From NCBI GenBank assembly GCA_030737835.1, contig CM060850.1:9863877-9927876 (forward strand): a DNA stretch of 64,000 bases, written 5' to 3'. This document shows positions 24,766 to 37,955 of this stretch, piece after piece. The notes below the pieces were generated by a model. That model saw only the letters and a list, made by a program, of their open reading frames with translations, searched no databases and was not told the DNA's origin. Positions within the stretch are counted from its first letter, which is position 1; each line of letters opens with the position of its first letter. A program made the position numbers and the translations under genes. The DNA comes from Acorus gramineus. Its lineage: Eukaryota > Streptophyta > Magnoliopsida > Acorales > Acoraceae.

Positions 24766-24818
24766 GGTTGAAATTGAAAGACCAATTTTTGAGTGGTGAT
24801 GAGGAATCTTGGATATGC

Positions 24819-24824
24819 CACGTG
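24819..24824 (-). promoter_or_regulatory. G-box in the RIQ-like promoter
   Basis: A perfect CACGTG, in the context GCCACGTGTCA, about 92 bp upstream of the ATG. This is a common light- and ABA-related element in promoters of chloroplast protein genes. Function is inferred. Confidence 0.5.
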
Positions 24825-25133
24825 TCAGTCTGTGGTTGGTGAGTTGTGGTAGAGTGGAAACCTCTCCTCCGGCTCTATGGTCTGGGCTTGTATTTTTGGC
24901 CCAGAGTTTTTGTTCTTTTCAGAAAAAGGATAGCCTTGTTACAGTTTCGATTACAGTCCACACTCTTTTTTTTTTTTATATTATTTTTATTGTAACATGA
25001 AGAAATAGGTTGATATACAAATTTGCATACATATTTTGATTATTTTTTTTTGCCCATAGTGAATATTTTAAATTTTGGTTTTTAATTTTTTGCTTTTGAG
25101 ATTTATTTTTATTTTTTTGTAGGTATGTTAATA

Positions 25134-26076
25134 GGGCACGGATATCGGCACCCCAGTTTGCAAGAAACCCACCTCTTTAAAAAAATAAAAAAACAGTTTT
25201 TGTGCACTGTTGCAGTAAGAGTAAACCCACCTCGAGTTCGGCAATCCCTCTGGCGATGGTGGTGAATTATGGTCGACTGAGAGTTTGGTGTGTGCGCCAA
25301 CCCAGGTCAGCAACCACTTGGGCGACGGTGTTGAAATATGATCGCCAGAAGGCCCGACGAGCTAAACTCAGAGAAAATAAATTCACATTGTTACAAGTTT
25401 TAAACCAATTATGACAAATTTCACATGTAAACACATATAATAAACAATCATTGCTGTATTTATAACACATTAAAATACAATGTTAGCATTCCATAACCAA
25501 CCATATATGTGAGTACACTACAAGTAATTGTTTTTATGTTTATTTTTATTTTTTAAAAAAAGAGTAATTGTTTTTATTTAATAGGTTATTTATTTTTATA
25601 CATGGAAAAATCGATATAGTCACATGAATGGTTGTGGAATTTGAACATGTATTTTGTTGTGTAATCATATGAATGATTGGTTATTGAATGCGAATATTGT
25701 ATGTTGATGTATTATGAATACTGCTATGGTTGTATATTATATGTGTTTACATGTAAAATTTGTCATGATTGGTTTGAAACTTATAACAATGTGAATTTAT
25801 TTTATCTGAGTTTAGCTCGCTGAGTCTTCTGACAACCATACTTCAACACCGTCGTCAAAGTAGTTGCCGACTATACTTCAACACTGTCGCCCAAGGGGTT
25901 GCCGATCTGGGTTGGTACACACGTCAAACTCTCAGTCGATCATAATTCACTACCATCGCAAAGGGATTGCTGAACTTGAAGTGGGTTTACTCTTACTGCA
26001 ACAGTGTACAAAAACTGTTTTTTATTTTTTTTAAAGGGTGGGTTTCTTGTGAACTGGGGTGCTGATATCCGCGCTT
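25134..26076. mobile_element. non-autonomous Mutator-like element with long inverted repeats
   Basis: A 943-bp element. The arms (about 25134-25445 and 25733-26076) are clear inverted repeats over 300 bp, starting GGGCACGGATATCGGCACCCC on the left and ending with the complement of AAGCGCGGATATCAGCACCCC. Flanks are ATGTTAATA (25125-25133) and ATTTTAATA (26077-26085), a 9-bp duplication with one mismatch, as for Mutator-like elements. The right arm has an extra internal duplication (GACGGTGTTGAAGTATGG). No transposase. Transcribed, the arms would form a long hairpin. Confidence 0.85.
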
Positions 26077-26696
26077 ATTTTAATATTCAAACCCATGACA
26101 TTATGGTTGTCAATGCTCTTATCAATAACTGAACTATGGTTCCAAGTCCCAATAGAGAGTGAATTTAATTTGAATAGAAAATATCTTATTCAATAAAAAA
26201 AAGAGTGATGAAATATCCAATCCCAATTTGGAGTCCTGTCTACATCTTGAAGGTGGTCTCCCATTAGAGTTTATGTTGGTGTATGCAATGTATGTTTGAT
26301 TAATTTTTTTTATTTTTTTAAAAAATTCAAAATTAAAACATTTATATAGATATATACTTCCTTTTTCATAATAATATGTATTTCATTATATGAAAAAATA
26401 TTCTAAAATAAAATCAAACCAGGTTGAGTGCCACACAGGGGGCTTGAAAACAGGGGGGGACTGCAAAACATATCAGTTTCCTTTATAGAGTGAGTCAGTC
26501 TCAAATTTCTAAAGCCCAACTTCAGCCCAAGTTTTATATCTTGTGGGCTACAGCCCAGCTAGTGTGTCCATTACTTGACAAGAGACCTTATTAATCCATT
26601 GCACATTTGCACCCTATCCTTATTAGAAGAAGAATTATTTCATTTATTATTATTATTTTTTTATTTTTAGTAATGAAGCACGGTTATAAGATCAGT

Positions 26697-27075
26697 TAGG
26701 GCTGCAACTTGGGTCGGGTTAAACCCGAACCCGACCGGTTGAACCCGATTTTTATATGGGTTGGGTAGGCCAAATCGGCTTCGGGTTGACTCATAAATCG
26801 AGTTGGGTTCGGGTTGGCCTCACTCACAACCTGACCCAATCCGAACCAGTAAATTAATAGTTAAAAAAAATCATGATCATTTATTTTGTAGCTCTTAATC
26901 TAAACCGTTCAAATTTTAGATAACCCTAACTAATCTTACGAGTTAAGTCGGGTTGGTTTATTTAATTACGGGTTGAGTTCGGGTTAATCCAATTCGGGTT
27001 GAAAATCGAGTTAGGATTGAGTAGTTTATAATTTTGGTTGAGTTTGGGTTCGGATCAACCCGAGTTGCAGCCCTA
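26697..27075. mobile_element. hAT-type MITE
   Basis: A 379-bp element with ends TAGGGCTGCAACTTGGGTCGG and the complement of CCCGAGTTGCAGCCCTA, flanked by a perfect 8-bp duplication AGATCAGT (26689-26696 and 27076-27083). Many CGGGTT/AACCCG subterminal motifs. Non-coding. Confidence 0.9.
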
Positions 27076-27432
27076 AGATCAGTACATATAACATTGACAA
27101 AAAAAAAAAACTTTACAAAATTATTTCTTTTATAAAAAAATTAAAACAAATGGAAATAAAATACACAATCTGAAATTTTTCATTAATAAGCGTCGGCTTT
27201 GACACAGTCATCCTTTTTTTTTTTTTTTTGGCAGCGCTCTCTTTTAGGTTAATATATATATAATTTTTATAGAAAAGATATAATTTATTACCGTAACTTT
27301 TATATAAAATCAAAAGTGAATTAATAAAATCACTTTTTATAGAAATGCTGTCTACGATGGTTATTATGTGTTAAACATAAACAAGTAATTATTTTTATTT
27401 CCTGGATAAGTGAAAAGGCACAATTAAATAAA

Positions 27433-27887
27433 TGGATTTTTATTTTTAAGTCCCTATAAACATGCTTATTTATGATCGATTTCTTCATTCTTCATATTTC
27501 TTTTCAAGTCTTATATTCAACCGCATATTTGATTTTTAGTCCCTCCGTCAAACGTCCGTTCATACACCGTTAATTTGTGAAATGTGATTTATTTTTAAGT
27601 CCCTGTAAACCATATTATATAGTGATTAGTCTCTCCCTTCTTCATATTTTATAAGGATTGATCACTAAATAATATAGTTTACATGGACTTAACACTAAAT
27701 AATATAGTTTACATGGACTTAACAATAAAATCACATTTCACAAATTAAGAGTGTATGGACGGACGTTTGACGGAGGAACTAAAAACCAAATAAGCGGTTG
27801 AACATGGAGACTTAAAAAGAAATATAAAGAAGTGAGAGACTGATCCTTAAATAGACATGTTTACATGGATTTAAAACTAAAAATCCC
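27433..27887. mobile_element. Mutator-like foldback MITE (TTAAATAAA target)
   Basis: A 455-bp element that is nearly one large inverted repeat, with ends TGGATTTTTATTTTTAAG and the complement of AAAACTAAAAATCCC, flanked by a perfect 9-bp duplication TTAAATAAA (27424-27432, 27888-27896). A 30-bp unit (ACTAAATAATATAG...GGACTTAAC) is duplicated in tandem at about 27664-27725. It is related to the element at 54042. Confidence 0.85.
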
Positions 27888-27896
27888 TTAAATAAA

Positions 27897-28761
27897 GTAT
27901 ATAATTTTTTTGGATGAAGATTCATGTTAAAAATGTACACTATCTAATTGAATATATACCTCCATAAAAATAACACACATGTTAAAACGAATTGAATCAA
28001 TATATTTTACAAAATTTTCAATTAATATTAATCTCATTAATAAAATGCATATATTTGAGGCAGTAATGCGATTACATTAGCGTCCTTTTGTTTTACATTG
28101 ATGAATTTATAAACCCTTCAAAACCCGTTTTTAGGAGTTTTGATACTCTTAATGGTCACATATAATAAAGATATCATTCAGTGTTATCAAGGTGTAAGTC
28201 AATCTTGGATAAATAAATGACATTCAATTTAGACAAAGTTTGATAGTGGAATGGTAAAATTGATTGTTATAAAAATTGAGTTTAAAACTGATTCAGCGCT
28301 GCACTTCTCAATTACGATATTTTTGTGCATGTTTAACTTTTATATATATCATAATTAGCCTCAGAGCATTTTTAGTGTTATACTCTCTTCTGACTGATGA
28401 TGATATAGTAGTTGTTCACCAATTTTTAGGATGATAGTTTTTGAACACCGTTTATTTAAAATCTATACGTAGAAAGTTCTTATAATAAAATTATTTATCT
28501 ACGTGATTTTAAAAACAATTTTATATAAATTTTAAAAAATATCCAATGATAAAAGGAAACGCAGTTTTTATTTTTAATTTATATATATAGTATCGGAGGT
28601 AAAAAAGATGCACGTTTTCAAAATCGAAATTTTCAAAATCTAAGGTACTGAAAAATAGATTCGTTTACCAAATCAACACGTAAAATCATATCTACTTTAT
28701 AATTAAAAATAAATAAACCTAGTTTGTATGGGACAGACAAATCCCGCCAAAAAAAGAAGCA
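27897..28761. other. intergenic DNA, no gene seen
   Basis: AT-rich sequence with no recognisable gene, RNA or bounded repeat. Confidence 0.4.
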
Positions 28762-28762
28762 A

Positions 28763-29086
28763 ACGTGTCGCTCTCTCAACCTTCCACGTGTCAAAGGCAT
28801 CTTCACCAAATCACGTCCAGATGGATACGGAGGCCACACAGGCCTTCCCATTGATATCTGACACGTGGAACGATCTCCACCCGTCCACGTCTGTTGAGGT
28901 GACGTTTATATCAGGTTATCGTACAAAGATCTCTGGACCCCACCAGCGGGTGTCGCTGACGTCATCCTCATCGTGGAAGGTGTGACACGTGTTCAACGGT
29001 CACGGGACAAGTTGCATGGGTCCATGCCCCATCTGAGCTGTATGAGTGGCACGTGTGAATGGCACGTGTAAAGGAAAGAGACGTGG
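28763..29086. promoter_or_regulatory. dense G-box / ACGT-element cluster
   Basis: Five perfect CACGTG palindromes start at 28785, 28862, 28986, 29050 and 29063, with a perfect TGACGTCA at 28957-28964 and further ACGT cores at 28763, 28812, 28885, 28902 and 29081. These are binding sites of bZIP (ABF/ABI5, TGA) and bHLH factors. No gene starts here. The nearest downstream gene on this strand is the AFP gene at 35.06 kb, beyond two Mutator-like elements. Regulatory function is inferred. Confidence 0.7.
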
Positions 29087-29195
29087 CGTTCGGTCGTACT
29101 GGGCTTCTGGTGAATTCCTCGGCGAATTTTAGATGGGTTTTCTTTTCCGTTGACCACGGTCAAATATGGTTTGTATTTTCTAAATAAATTTTTTT

Positions 29196-31955
29196 GGGGG
29201 AAATTGTCCATGTGTATTTGGACCAGGTGATCTGGGAAATTTTTTTTTTAGCCCCTGTTTTTTAGTCCCCTTGTTTTTTTTACCCCTCCCACTGTCACCT
29301 CATATTTTTTTTTCACATTTGCCCTTCCTCTCCCACTGCTCTCTTTCCCTCCTATTTCTCCTCCCCTAAATCACCTGGAAAAAACTTCGAATAAACAAAA
29401 CTCTCAAATAAAAAACCCCCCCATCGGCATCCCCTTGTTCTCCGTTGGTCATTGGGTTATACAATAGCCTCTTTTGAAGCGGAGACGTCTATCCTCTTTA
29501 CAAACCCTCTCACACTATAAAACTCTCTCACCCTCTCATTCTACAAACCTTTTATTAAAACCCAACACCCACGATCACCGACCTCTATCTCTCCTCTTCG
29601 ACCAATGGGTTTGTGTCCTACCAGTGATCACCTTCTCTGTCCCGCTTCTTCAGCCACCTTCAAATCAGCCACCTGCAAATTTTTGTAATTTCTAAGTATT
29701 GTTATGCTAATGGTTTTTGTGTTTATCAAGTTTATCAAGTAACTAACATACTTTTCAGTGTCACTTGAATCAGTTTATCAAGTAAATGATGGTTTAGAAA
29801 TTTTTTAAGAGAGAACATCTACAAAAATTTTCAAGTGAATATAAACTGTGTATGACAAAATCCAGTTTTCTTTCAATAATTGTTCATTAATAGAAATATT
29901 CTGTATTTGGTTTGTAATAACCTGTAAGTTGTCATTCTATCTATGTAATTGATCATTATAAATCTGTAACTATTTATTCATTCAGTGTATGTGGTCATTA
30001 GATTTCTGTGCACCAATTTCCTGTATATGTCTTACACAGAGAAGGTGGAGATGATTATTTAAAGAGTTTTTCAATGCCACTTGAACCATTTTTAAATAAT
30101 TTGTCGATCACTCTTTATTTTCTTGTTCATTGTTTATACTATTTTTCTTAGTGTATGTCAATTGGTTTAGAAGTTCTTTGAGAGGACATCTATGAAACTT
30201 TTCAAGTGAATATAAACTGTGCATAAGAAGTCCCAGTTTCCTTTCAGTATTTGTTCATTTATAGTAGTATTTTGTATTTGGTTTGTAATATCATGTAAAT
30301 GGTCATTCTATATAATTGATTATTATAAATCTGTATATGTAAATATTTTATCACTCAGTGTATGTGGTCATTAGATTTATGTGTACTAATTTCCTGTATA
30401 TATCTTACATAGAGGAGGTGGAGATGGTTATTTAAGTAGTTTTCCAATGCCACTTAAACCATTAAACCATCTTTAAATAATTTACCAATCACTCCTTGCT
30501 TTCTTGTTCAGTGTTTATACTCTTTTTCTGAGTGTATGTCAATTAGTTTAGAAGTTCTTTGCGAGATGACATCTATAAAACTTTTCAAGTGAATATAAAT
30601 CGTGAACATGAAGTCTTAGTTTCCTTTCTCTAGTTATTCATTTATCGCATTATTCTGTAATTGATTTTTAATATATTGTAAGTGATCATTCTATTTATGT
30701 AATTGGTTATTATAAATCTGTAATTATTTATTCACTCAGTGTATGTGATCATTAGATTTCTGTGTGCTAATTTCATGTATATATCTTACATAGAGGATGT
30801 GGAAATGATTATTTAAATAGTTTTTCAATGCCACTTGAACCATCTTTAAATAATATGTCAATCAATATTTACTTTTTCTATTCAATGTTTATACTCTTTT
30901 TCTGAGTGTATGTTAGTAAATGATGGTTTAGAAATTTTTTGAGAGAGGACATCCATGAAACTTTTCAATTGAATATAAATTGTGTATAAAAAGTCCTAGT
31001 TTCCTTTCTGTAATTGTTCAATTAGAGTATTATTCTGTAATTGATTTGTAATATCATGTAAGTAGTCATTCTATTCATGTAATTGATTATTATAAATATG
31101 TAACTATTTATTCACTCAGTATATGTCGTCATTAGATTTTTGTGTACTAATTTCTTGTAAATATCTTACATAAAGGAGATGGAGATGGTTATTTCAATAG
31201 TTTTCAAATGCTACTTGATCCATCTTTAAATAATTTGCCAATCACTTTACACTTTCATGTTCAGTGTTTATATTTTTTTTCTGAGTGTATGTCAGTAAAG
31301 GATGGTTTAGAAGTTCTCTAAGAGAGGAAATCTATGAAACTTTTTAAGTGAATGTAAATTATGTATAAGAAATCCTAGTTTTATTTCTATAGTTGTTCAT
31401 TTATAGTATTATTCTGTAATTAGTTTGTAAGTTTCTGTAAGTGGTTATTCTATTTCAGTAATTGATTATTATAAATTTATAACTACTTATTCACTCAGTG
31501 TATATTTTACAGTTTGGATGGTAAGATCGGGCGGTGGCAGATTGGGCCTGTCTGACTGTCCAATCGGTGAACGGCGATGGTTGGAGAACAATGAGCGATG
31601 ATGGCGGGAGGTTTGTGCGTGGCGATGGTGGGAGAGAAGGTGGGGGATCAGGTCGGTGGGAGATCAGTGGAAACGACGAGCGAGCAGATTCGATGGGAAG
31701 ACAAGAAGGGAATTACGTTATCGATTTGGGGGAGTTTTTGATTTGGGGGTGTTTTTATTTGGTTTTTTTTTTCCAGGTGATTTGGGAGAGAAATGGGAGT
31801 GAAAGGGCATATGTGGAAGGAAAATGTGAGGTGGCAGTGGGAGGGATAAAAAAACAAGGGAACTAAAAAGCAAGGGTAAAAAAAAATTCCCCCAGGTCAA
31901 GGGGCATGAAAAAAATAGGGGGCTCGGTTCAGGGGCATTTGGATAATTTCCCCCC
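29196..31955. mobile_element. 2.8-kb non-autonomous Mutator-like element with internal tandem repeats
   Basis: Long inverted ends (about 29196-29440 and 31700-31955): GGGGGAAATTGTCCATGTG..., then shared blocks such as CCCCTTGTTTTTTTTACCCC, CTCCCACTGTCACCTCA and AAATCACCTGGAAAAAA. Flanks are T-runs, so the target duplication cannot be fixed. The middle (about 29700-31510) is a roughly 380-bp unit repeated about 4.6 times. The right inner part is GC-rich (GATGGCGGGAGG) and may be captured DNA. No transposase seen; the 110-codon open frame at 31534 looks like chance. Confidence 0.75.
29700..31510 (+). repeat. ~380-bp tandem repeat array (about 4.6 copies)
   Basis: The marker CAGTGTATGTGGTCATTAG recurs at about 29983, 30356, 30737, 31117 and (partly) 31496, giving periods of 373-381 bp. 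Each unit also has CCACTTGAACCAT, GAGTGTATGTCA, GGACATCTATGAAACTTTTC and TTTGTAATATCATGTAA blocks. Copies differ by scattered substitutions, so the array is not brand new. Confidence 0.9.
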
Positions 31956-33095
31956 TTTTTTTTTGGTATGTCATAAATCAATGCATGTAGCTCCTTAAAA
32001 GTTTGTTTATATCTATATCAATTCCTCTTTTTTATTGTTTGGGTTATGATGATATATACTCTCTATTCTTAACACCTTGAAACTAAGGTGTGGTTAATTT
32101 AATTATACATCATTAAATTATTATTTTTACTCTCATCGCTTTCACCACACCTAAGAAAAATGCATATAACTTCGTATTGATCCCTAAATATTTATATAAG
32201 CCCTCATATTGTTCTTGAGATAAAGATTCAGGTCCCACAGTTTTTTGAGGAATATTCCTATAATTGCGTTTATCAAAATAATCTTATGATATTTAAGATA
32301 AATTCAATAAGATCCCTCTAAATGACAAAAATATATTCCAAATAAAAATACACTACCGTGTTTCTTCATTCAATGAGTTAAGAAATAAAATTATTGTATA
32401 TTTTAAGATTACCCATCCATAAATTTTATTGAGTAACAGTGGGGTGAGATATGAATTAAGTCAGTAAGTTTTGGGGTTATTTGGATATTCAGAAAGAGAG
32501 GCGTCAATACGTATGTTTGTGATATTTCACTGGGTTATATGAATATATTTATTTTCATAGTGACGCTGTGTAACGAAATATTTTCCTATTATTCTTCTTA
32601 AATTGACAGCAATTTAACTTAGAATTTTTTTTTTTTTTTTGCTAACTAGGGAAACTTACAGGGATTATATGGAATTTTTGAATAAATAGGTTGGGGGGGG
32701 GGGAGAATTTGGATATTAGCAAACTTTTATGGTATATACATTTTTTTAAAAATAAATATTATAGGAAGTTGGTCAATTTTGATTGACTATTAATTTATTA
32801 TTCCTTTTGTAAATTTAAACCAAATATATACTAATTATCTGATATAATATATATATATATATTATAATAACATAAAAATATGTTCATAAAATTAAATAAT
32901 TTATTTTCAATGCTGAATTTTATGTTTTACAAAATTCAATAGGGCTTAAATGAGATTGGATTATTTGGTATTGTTCATAATGTTTTTTTTTTTTCAAAAT
33001 TTTAATGAGACGAAAAGAAAAAATTTGGAGGAGTAAACATATATATAATCATCTTGATTATTATTAACTTTATAAAATGTGGATAAATAAACAGA
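31956..33095. other. intergenic DNA, no gene seen
   Basis: AT-rich, with a G-run at about 32692-32703 and an AT run near 32850. No gene or bounded repeat that I can support. Confidence 0.4.
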
Positions 33096-33659
33096 GGGGT
33101 GGTTATTTCAACCACATCAACTCCTTCACCCACCCCTTAAATTTTTTTTTTTTTTTTTTGTGATCCTAACCCACCCCTAACCAGCGGAGTATTCACAAGG
33201 GGTCGCTCGTGAAGGCGTGGTGGACGGCGTCGCCGCCGACGGGGGAGGAGGAGGAGTAGAGGTTGTTGAAGATGGAGGCGACAAAGCTCTCGGGCCACCT
33301 GATCGACGACGGAGGGGGGGGGGGTGGAGAGGAAGCAACTGTGGACGGCGTCGCCGCCGACAGGGGAGGAGGAGGAGCGGAGGTTGTTGAAGATGGAGGC
33401 GACGACGAGACGTTGCAGGGAAGTTTGGGGAGGCGGGTTCTCTCGAGGAGCAGATTGAGGGGTGTTGGTTGGTAGCGTTGATGGGGGTGGGCGGCAGCGA
33501 TGGCGACCTCATCCTCCCCAGTCGACCACGACGCCGTCCACCACGCCTTCGTAAGCGATCTCTCGTGGATGCTCCGCTGATCGGGGTGGATTAAGATCAT
33601 AAAAAAAAAAAAATTTAAGAGGTGAGTAAAAGAGTTGATGGGGTTGAAATAAGAGCCCC
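33096..33659. mobile_element. GC-rich Mutator-like element, Pack-MULE-like
   Basis: A 564-bp element with arms of about 165 bp: GGGGTGGTTATTTCAACCACATC at the left and the complement of GGGGCTCTTATTTCAACCCC at the right; the homology continues through CAGCGGAG, GAAGGCGTGGTGGACGGCG. Flanks ATAAACAGA and GTAATCAAA share 6 of 9 bases, a possible worn 9-bp duplication. A roughly 64-bp GC-rich block (GTGGACGGCGTCGCCGCCGA...) is repeated at about 33219 and 33341. The GC-rich interior may derive from a captured exon, but I recognise no protein. Confidence 0.65.
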
Positions 33660-34040
33660 GTAATCAAAACCTTTTGTCATCGTTTTTTACGTCAATTAAG
33701 TCTATTCATTAGAGATGATTAATACTTATTATGTCATCCTCAATAGTGAAATTCAGTTTTATGGAGAAATATTTTTTAAAAAGTACTGACAACCTTGTTT
33801 ACTCCTAAAACATTTCATTTTTCTAGTCAATCAGCACACCAACCCTTTTGCAGAAACCATACTATACGAAACAACTAAACTAATAAAAACATGAGACACA
33901 CTTATCAATAAATTTATCTAGCATCATTTCAATATCAATCAATCAATATAATATCTACCAAAAGCATATTTAAATAATATATATAATTAGATAAACTCCC
34001 GGTCACAAGATCTTGATAGAGATAAAAACAGGATTCGCCT
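33660..34040. other. intergenic DNA, no gene seen
   Basis: AT-rich sequence between the Mutator-like element and the second G-box cluster. Nothing recognised. Confidence 0.4.
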
Positions 34041-34048
34041 TTGCGTGC

Positions 34049-34782
34049 CACGTGTCAAACTCTCCTTGTTTAACCCGAACCCGCTTTGTTTGGAGTCCAG
34101 CGGAGGAGAAAGCGACGTCGCTTTGCTTGACGAAGACTCCCACACCTCCACGTGTCGGTCACGTTCATTTCAATCGACACGTGTCGGTATCCCTCGGTCC
34201 CCGAGCCTCCCCAGCTTGGATACATGTTTCCTTCCCTGGGGAAATTAATTCCAGGTCTTTTGAAAAACCCTTGAATTATATTTAGATCCTTAAAATATTT
34301 GAACTTATTTTTAGGTTTTCAAATCACATTGTCTATTATTTTCAAGTAGAGGTGGTCAGCGAGTCGAGCGAGTCGAGCTTTAGCATGTTTAAATCTGCGT
34401 ACACTGTTAATATGTATAAATACACATTTAACAAGTCTAGTTACATTGTTAAGATGGAAAAAAGGATGGTAAAGGAGGGAGAGAGTCAGCTAGGGAAGGG
34501 ATAATGGAAGGGAGGAGTGATGAGAAACAGCACACAGAGGGGATGAGCTGTTATTGTTGTGGATGTGAGGGAATGATGGGGACACAAATAAAATATGAAG
34601 GTATGGATAAAAGTGAAAAAAAAAAGGGTAAAAGGTGGATGGAATGACCTAAAAGAAATACCCCAACCAATCCGAGGATCTAAAAATAACTAGATGTTTC
34701 TTGAAGGACTCAGTATTAATTTCCCCTTCTTTTCTGGCGTCGCCACGCGTCGCTTCCTCTTCCTTCCCTTATTGTACACGTG
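34049..34782 (+). promoter_or_regulatory. G-box elements upstream of the AFP gene
   Basis: Perfect CACGTG palindromes at 34049-34054, 34149-34154, 34178-34183 and 34777-34782, the first three in CCACGTGTC/ACACGTGTC contexts that match ABA-response elements. AFP genes are known to be ABA-inducible and their products bind ABI5-type bZIPs, which bind such sites, so feedback control is plausible. This is inference from motif content. Confidence 0.6.
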
Positions 34783-35059
34783 GAGTCTCCAAAAGCGTGT
34801 CGTTTGTCAGACCGAGGGGTATTTCCGTCATTTCACCCATATTAGCTCTGTCTCTGTATTTTATGGAGTCTCTGTTTGTTTTTCAATTTTTTGGTTTTTC
34901 TGAAATCGAAATCGAAGAATCATCGATTGGGTTTTCGTTGAATCGGTTTCTCGAACTTTAGAGATGCTCAAAATCGTGTCTTTTTAGGGTTTCAAATGGC
35001 TCCCCTGCTTTGGGTTTACATTTTCACGCGATAAAAATCGTATCTTTGGAACCCCCAAA

Positions 35060-37955
35060 ATGCCGGAGGCGACGGACGGGCTATCCAGGGACCTCCTCCG
35101 GTTGTTCTCCGCCGAGAACCACCGGCCGCCACATCCATCGGCGAAGATAACAGCGGTGGACGACTCCGACGGGCTCGAGCTCAGCCTCGGCCTTTCGCTG
35201 GGTGGGCGGTTCGGGTCCGACCCAAAGAGGCTCGTCAGGTCCTCTTCCGTCGCCGATGCGGCGGAGGAGGCGCCTCCGGCGGTGGAGACTGAAGCGCCGC
35301 TATTGAGAGCGTGTTCGCTGCCGGCGGAGGCGGAGGAGGAGGTGCGGAAGCGGAAGGAGATGCAGAGCTTGAGGAGGATGGAAGCGAAGAGGAAGAGATC
35401 GGAGAAGTCTCAGAAGGTGAAGGTCGAGGAGGGCTTATCGGGTCGGGCGGAATTCGCGGTGGGTCCGAATTGGGCGGCGGCAGCGGCGGCCGCCGTCGTT
35501 TCGAGGCAGGGGTCGATCGGGTCGCAGGGGAGCAGCTCGTCGGGGGCTTCGGATGTGGACGGCCGAGCTTTCCAAGGTAAAAAAAGTTCATATTTTTATT
35601 GGGTTTTTGTTGTTGATTGCAAATGAAAATGTTTTATGTATTGTTTTTTCACAGTTTAAATCTTTTTTAATTCTGGTAATGAATGTGGTATTCTTTATGA
35701 AGTGCGTTTTGGGTTATTCTATTTCTATTCTTTTCAAGGATGAATTTCGGTGCTCATATTTTAATGAACTGTTGAAGAATATTCAAAAGGTCTTCTCATG
35801 CTTTATTGGAGGTGAAGTTTATTGGAGGCACTAATGTTGACATATGCTTTCTTAAGTAGAACCCCACCCTATTCTATTGGAGTCTCCTGAGTGTTGTTTG
35901 GAAACGCGTTTTGGTTGATTCTGGTTTTGCAGGAATCAACTTGACCCAAATGTGTTTCCAAACGCGCCTCTGATGGTCAGAGCTTTTTATGGAAGCTGGA
36001 CACAGTTTTTAGTTATAGATAGTAAAAAAAGAAGAATGGGAATCTAATTTCAAAAGCAGCTTTAAAAATTTGTTGTTCGAACGGGTTTCTAAACCTTACC
36101 CTAGAATGCATGGTTTTCACTAATTTGGCTTTAGATGACAAGGAGTTGTTTGCCTTTCCAAATCTACCATAATTAACTAATAACTTTGTTTAAAAGTTTC
36201 GGATATAAAAGTGGCATGATGTTATTGGTTCTTTTCTCTGACTTCCAATTTTGTCGAATGACATTGCTGGTCCCAAATCATTGTGTAAAGGGAGGTTGTT
36301 CATGTCACCTTTAGCCGGCATATCGTTTTGTTACGCTTTGCAATCGTTTTCTGAAGAAGATATTATTCTTTATGGTGCCTACTTGCCCACATGAGGAATC
36401 TGAGTTGTTTGTTTGTTAAAGGAGACTATTGATTGGGCCGATATTTTTGTAGTTCAGATAACTTTGTTGCAGTACAGACCACACGTAAGATGTCATCCGT
36501 TCCTTGCAATATATACGTGGCATATCAATACAGGCCACAATTATTTTCTTCTTTTTGGAATCTGTTGATTGTGTTGATTTGGTATGCTAACCACGCGTAA
36601 AGTTCAATGGGCCTTATGAGGAAACTAAAATGTAATTTTTGGGAGTCCATTGATTGTACCTGTATAACATAGTCCAAACAACATCGTTGATATATATATA
36701 TATGCTAGCCACGCGTCCGAAATGTTTTGAATCGACCATAATGATGTCGGCATGGTTCTTTTCAATGTTATACTTTTCTTGTCTTTTGTTGTGTTGTGAT
36801 TTGTGGAAGCGCACATGAAGTCCAAGATAAATTATCGTAGAGTTTCATTCTTTATGATACGAGACTCTCGATCCTAGAAGAGGATTTCACTCTATCCATG
36901 AAGGTCTTCCCTCAACTTTAATATGTCATTTATTCCAAGGGTGGGGTTGTTTGGATGACAAACCAAGACTTTTTATTTCTCCTAACAAAAAGAAAGACAC
37001 GTATGGTTAAAATATGAGATATTACACATTCTTGCCCTGTGATCGCCATGTTGTGATATTTGTCGTTATATGGTAGCATTGTCGTGTAGGCTTTTTCCAA
37101 ATATACAGAGATCTTATTATGATTTTTCTTACTTGTATAGAGATTTTATGCTCTTGAGGGTTGGTATGCACTTCAAAATATTAGTAGTGAGTTACTATTT
37201 GTGGGTGCGAACAAAGAACACGTGGCTTACGCTCGGTTTACTTGATTATGTAATGTAGTTTTTCCAAATTTGTTGTTTAAATGCATTCACTATGATTAGT
37301 AGTTTTCGACACTTGCGCTTTTCCCTTTCAAAAACATGCTACATCGATATTATTACAATTAGTTCAAAAATATATTCTTCACGCATTGACACGTAGATTG
37401 TTGTTGATCACCTCCTCCTCGAAACAAATTTAGAATACCATGTTATCATGCATGGCTTACTGTGTATTTAGTTGTCCATGAAAAGTAACGTAATGCTTTA
37501 TTTCTTCTATTCAGTCTTTGATGGTGAATACATTCCCATTTGCTTGTACAGGTTTCGACATATCAGGGAGGAATGGTTACCAGAACCCCAAGAGCCCGAT
37601 GAAAGTCCAAGACCAAGTGGCCACCGGAAAATCTATCAATGCCGCCAACAAACCACCAAATGATCCATCGAAGAAGTCACCAACAAATAACAATAACAAT
37701 AACAACAAAAGGACTACAGAGATGGGCATGAACTTCATGGACGACATGCCATGCGTATTCACCAAAGGAGACGGACCGAACGGGAGGAAAATCGAAGGAG
37801 TCCTCTACAGATATAAGAAGGGAGAGGAGGTGAGAATCGTCTGCGTCTGCCATGGCAGCTTCTATTCGCCAGCGGAGTTCGTGAAACATGCAGGGGGAGG
37901 GGATGTCGCGCACCCTTTGAAGCACATTGTGGTCAACCCAACCCCATCACCCTGA
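35060..37955 (+). CDS. AFP: AFP / NINJA-family transcriptional co-repressor
   Basis: Two exons, 35060-35576 and 37552-37955, spliced G|GT in frame, 306 residues. It has the three conserved blocks of ABI5-binding-protein (AFP)/NINJA proteins: an N-terminal EAR motif LELSLGLSL at 39-47 followed by [16 protein letters not shown] (recruits TOPLESS); a basic nuclear-localisation block [18 protein letters not shown] at about 96-113 with the [12 protein letters not shown] motif; and a C-terminal domain ending [21 protein letters not shown] ...[10 protein letters not shown] that binds ABI5/JAZ-type partners. It represses ABA responses (AFP) or jasmonate responses (NINJA); EAR context favours AFP. Exon 1 is GC-rich, exon 2 has an Asn run. 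The 1,975-bp intron contains an inverted GTTTGGAAACGCG pair near 35895-35965, probably a MITE remnant. Confidence 0.9.

Follow-up and report, generated by a model that had tools for sequence, protein, structure and literature searches.

TMAC2 of Arabidopsis is a member of the AFP (ABI5-binding, Ninja) family. The gene owes its name to 'two or more ABREs' (abscisic acid-responsive elements; PMC12204623), and a 2025 paper presents a model in which abscisic acid (ABA) induces AFPs as a feedback mechanism (PMC12857203). Enrichment of CACGTG, the G-box, in conserved noncoding sequences (CNSs) of plant duplicates is established (PMC3708275, citing Freeling et al. 2007), and 'Bigfoot' genes are defined in the same source as having at least four CNSs over at least 4 kb of 5' plus 3' space, one CNS per kb. 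A miniature inverted-repeat transposable element (MITE) at maize Vgt1 serves as an example of a transposon disrupting a plant enhancer (PMC8824567). Here, an AFP gene of Acorus gramineus was analyzed in a 64-kb window (the whole stretch of DNA under study) of contig C4, with whole-genome searches covering 398.6 Mb. One cluster of G-boxes lies just upstream of this gene (proximal) and another several kilobases away (distal). The distal cluster is probably a cis-regulatory module of AFP, composed of ACGT-core (ABRE/G-box) sites and kept since a regional duplication together with proximal and intron-1 stretches, through which ABI5/ABF factors would induce the gene in a feedback. Within the literature library searched, no paper joins 'ABI5 binding protein' with 'conserved non-coding'; one, which its title places in banana wilt research, combines 'Ninja-family protein AFP', 'ABRE', and 'promoter'.

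The five distal and four proximal CACGTG sites listed in an initial annotation of this DNA were all recovered where it had placed them (Table 1), and both clusters are far beyond chance. The window contains 17 CACGTG sites compared with 4.67 expected, a count reached in 0 of 100 shuffles. Among 1000 window-wide dinucleotide shuffles, the maximum number of CACGTG per 330 bp was 3 (one shuffle) and was 1 in 920 of them. Shuffling the 391-bp G+C-rich distal island alone yielded at most 4 CACGTG (2 of 5000 shuffles) and 8 ACGT, against 5 and 11 in the real sequence, and the proximal stretch, shuffled without a 489-bp inserted element (element 3), reached at most 2 CACGTG (29 of 5000), against 4. 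The single TGACGTCA that had also been annotated is present at 28957 and is not rare alone, at least one copy occurring in 43 of 100 shuffles. Several closely spaced ACGTG[GT]C sites, the arrangement of an ABRE array, are found in both clusters (distal: 28763, 28786, 28860, 28984, and 29081; proximal: 34047, 34050, 34150, 34176, and 34179). Intron 1 of AFP also has CACGTG or ACGTGGC sites, at 37219 and 36515.

A second AFP gene was identified on contig C6. It shares 85% identity with the C4 protein over the C-terminal 79 residues and 197 of 293 aligned residues overall, and the pair has a synonymous divergence (Ks, Nei-Gojobori) of about 0.69-0.70. Downstream of both copies, matches in the same order run across a GDPD gene, of which an exon piece on C4 is assigned to GDPD by Pfam. 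Because the matches continue collinearly over this gene, the duplication covered a region and not AFP alone; it may have been whole-genome or segmental. In exon 1 of the C6 copy (L039:8298-8873), the EAR domain scores below the Pfam cut-off (25.5 versus 28.9), compared with 48.6 in the C4 copy, and LELSLGL is kept.

The 64-kb window was compared by BLAST with 50 kb around the C6 AFP gene. Fourteen matches start in 19.0-35.03 kb of the window, and only one of them is collinear, non-inverted, and non-repeat. This match is the best block of the distal module (28856-28933 = C6:19403299-19403377), with 76% identity over 79 bp (E = 2e-7). The other 13 were rejected, being inverted, made of simple repeats at ~24.6-24.8 kb, or located within 26286-27003, a stretch with further matches at the unrelated loci L006, L025, and L035. 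A targeted comparison added two further distal blocks, 28705-28793 (C6:19403196-19403284, 65 of 91 columns identical) and 28950-28968, which contains TGACGTCA (C6:19403400-19403418, 17 of 19), and CACGTG 28986 pairs with C6 19403444. The three blocks have identical order and orientation on C4 and C6. The module scores 54.5 bits, compared with a maximum of 31.9 in 500 dinucleotide shuffles against the same 50 kb. When up to one mismatch is allowed, the genome contains the 18-letter core CACGTCTGTNGAGNTGACGT twice, each time upstream of AFP, and its reversed (backwards-read) control pattern once. The distal module is noncoding, non-repeat DNA with similarity above chance between syntenic duplicates. 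The distal sites common to both copies are ABRE-like, namely CCACGTGTCA, TGACACGTGT, TGACGTCA, and also ACGTGTYG. In the proximal promoter, 16 bp (ATCGACACGTGTCGGT) around 34178 are identical on C6; the partners of 34049, 34178, and 34777 are clear in position and flanks, and 34149 and C6 19407760 pair unclearly. The intron-1 stretches common to C4 and C6 carry ACGTGGC or ACGTGTC.

Other origins of the distal cluster were considered. A transposon origin was rejected, as the C4 module has one genomic match at E <= 0.001 and its core is confined to the two AFP loci. Derivation from the proximal promoter by copying is not supported, the one link between the two being 20 nt at 80%, among 20 of 22 repeat families. 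An RNA gene was rejected, as the Rfam scan of the window gave 0 matches at gathering cut-offs. The same null result bears on another idea, that the module drives, as a promoter, an unannotated transcript (either a long noncoding RNA or an enhancer RNA) from a start at 28-29 kb. In favor of this idea, the motif-dense island is G+C-rich and lies in AT-rich DNA, as can be the case for promoters. The initial annotation had seen no gene start near this interval, and none is evident: the nearest recognized gene upstream, a minus-strand DUF1118 gene, starts at ~24.73 kb (Pfam supports one exon of this gene, and its start exon is taken from the open reading frame list). The list contains no open reading frame (ORF) of at least 110 aa between 24.9 and 31.5 kb; the stretches 25129-26074 and ~27422-27903, between the DUF1118 gene and the module, are high-copy repeats, each matching itself in inverted orientation; and the conserved core contains a 1-nt indel, with weak tblastx matches. 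Such a transcript is therefore quite improbable. On C6, the distal module is overlapped by a 108-aa minus-strand ORF, which has no C4 counterpart of at least 110 aa.

The strength of retention was evaluated at the level of ACGT cores, of which the compared stretch has 10 on C4 and 7 on C6. Among aligned C4 sites, 6 of 7 distal cores are intact on C6 versus 50 of 183 other 4-mers (Fisher p = 0.003), and 4 of 5 proximal cores are kept versus 83 of 399 (p = 0.008), in tests with small counts and with an aligner that prefers identical words. Several further observations weigh against the cis-regulatory reading. The excess is weaker against CpG-containing 4-mers (distal, 6/7 versus 12/34, p = 0.02; proximal, 4/5 versus 27/87, p = 0.04) and within the BLAST segments alone (5/6 versus 51/156, p = 0.02). 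Only 2 distal CACGTG sites are present on C6, versus 5 on C4: the site at 28862 is changed, and nothing on C6 corresponds to those at 29050 and 29063. The fourfold-degenerate sites of the AFP pair are 68/100 identical, and the excess of the 76% block, which was picked as the best one, over this neutral level is modest. The proximal promoter is absent from the whole-window BLAST and seen in the targeted comparison alone. These points leave some room for the similarity being a neutral relic of the duplication, with the G-boxes as decay products of an old promoter, since at 68/100 some neutral sequence could remain alignable and three of the five distal G-boxes are unshared. A neutral relic is nevertheless very unlikely, given that BLAST of the whole window yielded no other upstream match that is both collinear and non-repeat, and that ACGT cores are retained more than other 4-mers.

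The identity of the gene served by the distal module was assessed from its neighbors. The AFP assignment of the initial annotation was borne out by Pfam, with EAR, NLS_NINJA_AFP, and TDBD all over the cut-off in the gene at 35060-37955. The next recognized gene upstream is DUF1118, and its start is closer to the module (~4.1 kb) than AFP is. It also has a CACGTG of its own just upstream, at 24819, within an ABRE/G-box (24817-24826) that reads as ACGTG[GT]C on both strands. On C6, however, the module is kept beside AFP, and a genome search for DUF1118 returned this gene and two 44-45% identical matches (C32 and C102), none on C6. A module serving a divergent DUF1118 gene is the least probable of the explanations considered. 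The nearest recognized gene upstream on C6 is a FAR1-type gene, ~7.8 kb from the module, with no counterpart in the ORF list of the C4 window. It corresponds to an open 711-codon frame at C6:19393254-19395389 (L038:3254-5389) with FAR1, MULE, and SWIM domains, of the domesticated-transposase type. AFP is the nearest gene seen at both copies, because C6 keeps the module without DUF1118 and the FAR1-type gene lacks a C4 counterpart. In a control NINJA-type gene on C7, no CACGTG was found within 2.8 kb upstream of the ATG and one was found in 8 kb, 2.9 kb upstream. From this comparison, the distal cluster travels with AFP and not with DUF1118.

The space between the clusters is largely made of repeats. 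The two elements named in the initial annotation (elements 1 and 2) are real dispersed repeats with the long inverted ends of Mutator-like elements; element 3, the older repeat at ~31980-32759, and the AFP intron-1 sites had been missed. Within element 1, about five tandem 380-bp units, with mostly 79-89% similarity among the parts listed, occupy 29781-31593. Mutator-like elements make 9-bp target duplications. By visual inspection of five element-2 family copies, exact 9-bp flanking duplications were found in three (L028, L030, and L031), and no clean one was found at the window's own element copies or at six inspected copies of the element-1 family. The ORF list has no ORF longer than 156 aa in elements 1 or 2, none of these ORFs having been searched for MULE transposase; both elements look non-autonomous. 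The ~105-bp end pieces of element 3 have matches at many places (78-84%), and no near-full-length match above 70% identity is found among the matches listed.

No BLAST match to elements 1, 2, or 3 was found in the 50 kb around the C6 AFP gene. Since this duplicate, free of the three elements and the sole comparison made, keeps the distal module, the cluster is older than the C4 insertions, and it is not missing where the insertions are missing. An empty site for element 3 is present on C6 (ACATGTTTTCTTTTACGGCGTCGCCACGCGTC). Leaving out this element, the four C4 proximal G-boxes cover 245 bp (or 236 bp when a 9-bp target duplication is also removed), compared with 247 bp for the four of C6. Element 3 most likely inserted after the AFP duplication, because C6 has the empty site and the two spans are nearly equal. 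An empty site for element 1 is not recognizable on C6, because the C6 sequence past the module is a long G-run followed by other repeats.

The initial annotation had pictured an originally compact enhancer pushed apart by transposons. Its second half stands, in that the cluster goes with AFP, predates the insertions, and has been moved away by repeats, which make up ~4.1 kb of the 4980 bp between the C4 clusters. The 4.17 kb between the C6 modules includes a 0.9-kb dispersed repeat (19403997-19404900) and a 0.52-kb repeat (19406100-19406623) with TG...CA ends, flanked on each side by AAAAG and resembling a solo long terminal repeat. Transposons thus stretched both AFP copies, via different elements. 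The compact starting point found no such backing: with the repeats removed, a gap of ~0.9 kb remains between the C4 modules and one of up to ~2.7 kb between those of C6, where further repeats may hide (searches scored the best 40 candidates), and C6 has two of the five distal G-boxes. In these sequences, nothing shows that the distal and proximal modules were ever adjacent.

Table 1. Positions of the regulatory modules, AFP exons and intron-1 stretches, and repeats in the C4 window.
Feature	Position	Strand	Details
Distal G-box/ABRE module	28705..29068	+	Five CACGTG (28785, 28862, 28986, 29050, 29063) and TGACGTCA (28957)
Distal-module core CACGTCTGTTGAGGTGACGT	28886..28905 (C4:9892762-9892781)	+	At <=1 mismatch, two AFP loci only
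Element 1, 2.76-kb Mutator-like	29196..31955		Long inverted ends; internal tandem array of ~380-bp units; long ORFs absent
Older dispersed repeat	~31980-32759		Ends approximate; main matches elsewhere 67-76% identical
Element 2, 0.56-kb Mutator-like	33096..33659		Inverted ends
Proximal module, left part	34049..34237	+	CACGTG 34049, 34149, 34178
Element 3, 489 bp	34238..34726		Terminal inverted repeats; ends GGGGAAATTAATTC / AGTATTAATTTCCCC; splits proximal cluster
Proximal module, right part	34727..34836	+	GGCGTCGCCACGCGTC and ACACGTGG (CACGTG 34777), conserved on C6
AFP/Ninja-family gene, exon 1	35060..35576	+	EAR and NLS domains (Pfam)
Intron-1 stretch with ATACGTGGC	36322..36525	+	Similar on C6 (77%, 205 columns)
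Intron-1 stretch with ACACGTGGCTTAC	37216..37338	+	C6: ATACGTGGCTTAC; similar on C6 (73%, 129 columns)
AFP/Ninja-family gene, exon 2	37552..37955	+	TDBD domain (Pfam)

The likeliest function of the distal module would be that of an ABRE/G-box array letting ABI5/ABF-type bZIPs induce their own repressor. With ABA present, these bZIPs would bind the ACGT cores, and the distal and proximal modules would work jointly, with AFP being induced. AFP would then recruit co-repressors to the same bZIPs, with the array as the DNA component of a negative feedback loop. The distance from the distal module to the AFP ATG is 6.3 kb on C4 and 5.0 kb on C6, a difference that should be tolerable for an enhancer. 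The ABA-AFP feedback circuit put forward in the initial annotation is plausible.

CACGTG also binds bHLH (PIF and MYC), HY5, GBF, and BZR factors, which counts against a response specific to ABA, and CACGTG alone cannot separate bZIP from bHLH. The distal module may thus be an AFP enhancer answering mainly other ACGT/CACGTG binders (light and clock factors such as HY5, PIFs, and GBFs, or MYC2). Two of its sites, GGCACGTGTG (29050) and GGCACGTGTA (29063), fail ACGTG[GT]C on both strands, and they are absent on C6. The sites that are shared, in contrast, are bZIP/ABRE-like, with flanks that would favor bZIPs. The published model with ABA inducing AFPs also speaks against mainly non-ABA binders (PMC12857203), which are unlikely but carry some real weight. 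As a more speculative and rather doubtful extension of the ABA-responsive module favored here, the distal, proximal, and intronic ABRE modules might form one distance-tolerant AFP feedback enhancer, old in flowering plants, with repeated transposon insertions between and within the modules of both duplicates having spared most shared ACGT cores.

If the modules are ABA-responsive, the locus offers a small, exact system in which to test negative feedback on ABA signaling: the same control region is present twice at differing spacings, and in one copy a 489-bp element splits the promoter cluster. If they act as one feedback enhancer, the copies would be a natural spacing experiment on a hormone brake that senses its own targets. 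The locus also illustrates that, in place of a related species, an in-genome duplicate can tie a promoter cluster to a distant module as one system.

The AFP locus resembles known systems in part. Like the G-box-rich intragenomic CNSs (PMC3708275), the distal module is noncoding, collinear between retained duplicates, located near a regulatory gene, and rich in CACGTG; here, however, the inter-module space is mostly transposon, and the conserved stretch is longer than the rice CNS median of 26-27 bp given there. The locus is not classed as 'Bigfoot' as defined in that text, because no C6 match was found between 29.07 and 34.05 kb. As in TMAC2 (PMC12204623), ABREs are found at a gene for a negative regulator of ABA responses, whereas the second module at this distance upstream and the intron-1 sites are features of the Acorus gene. 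As with the maize Vgt1 MITE (PMC8824567), small elements were inserted in and around regulatory DNA; here, in contrast, many motifs survive in both copies, as judged from sequence alone. Collectively, this is probably control DNA of a known type, and the locus is a clear natural experiment.

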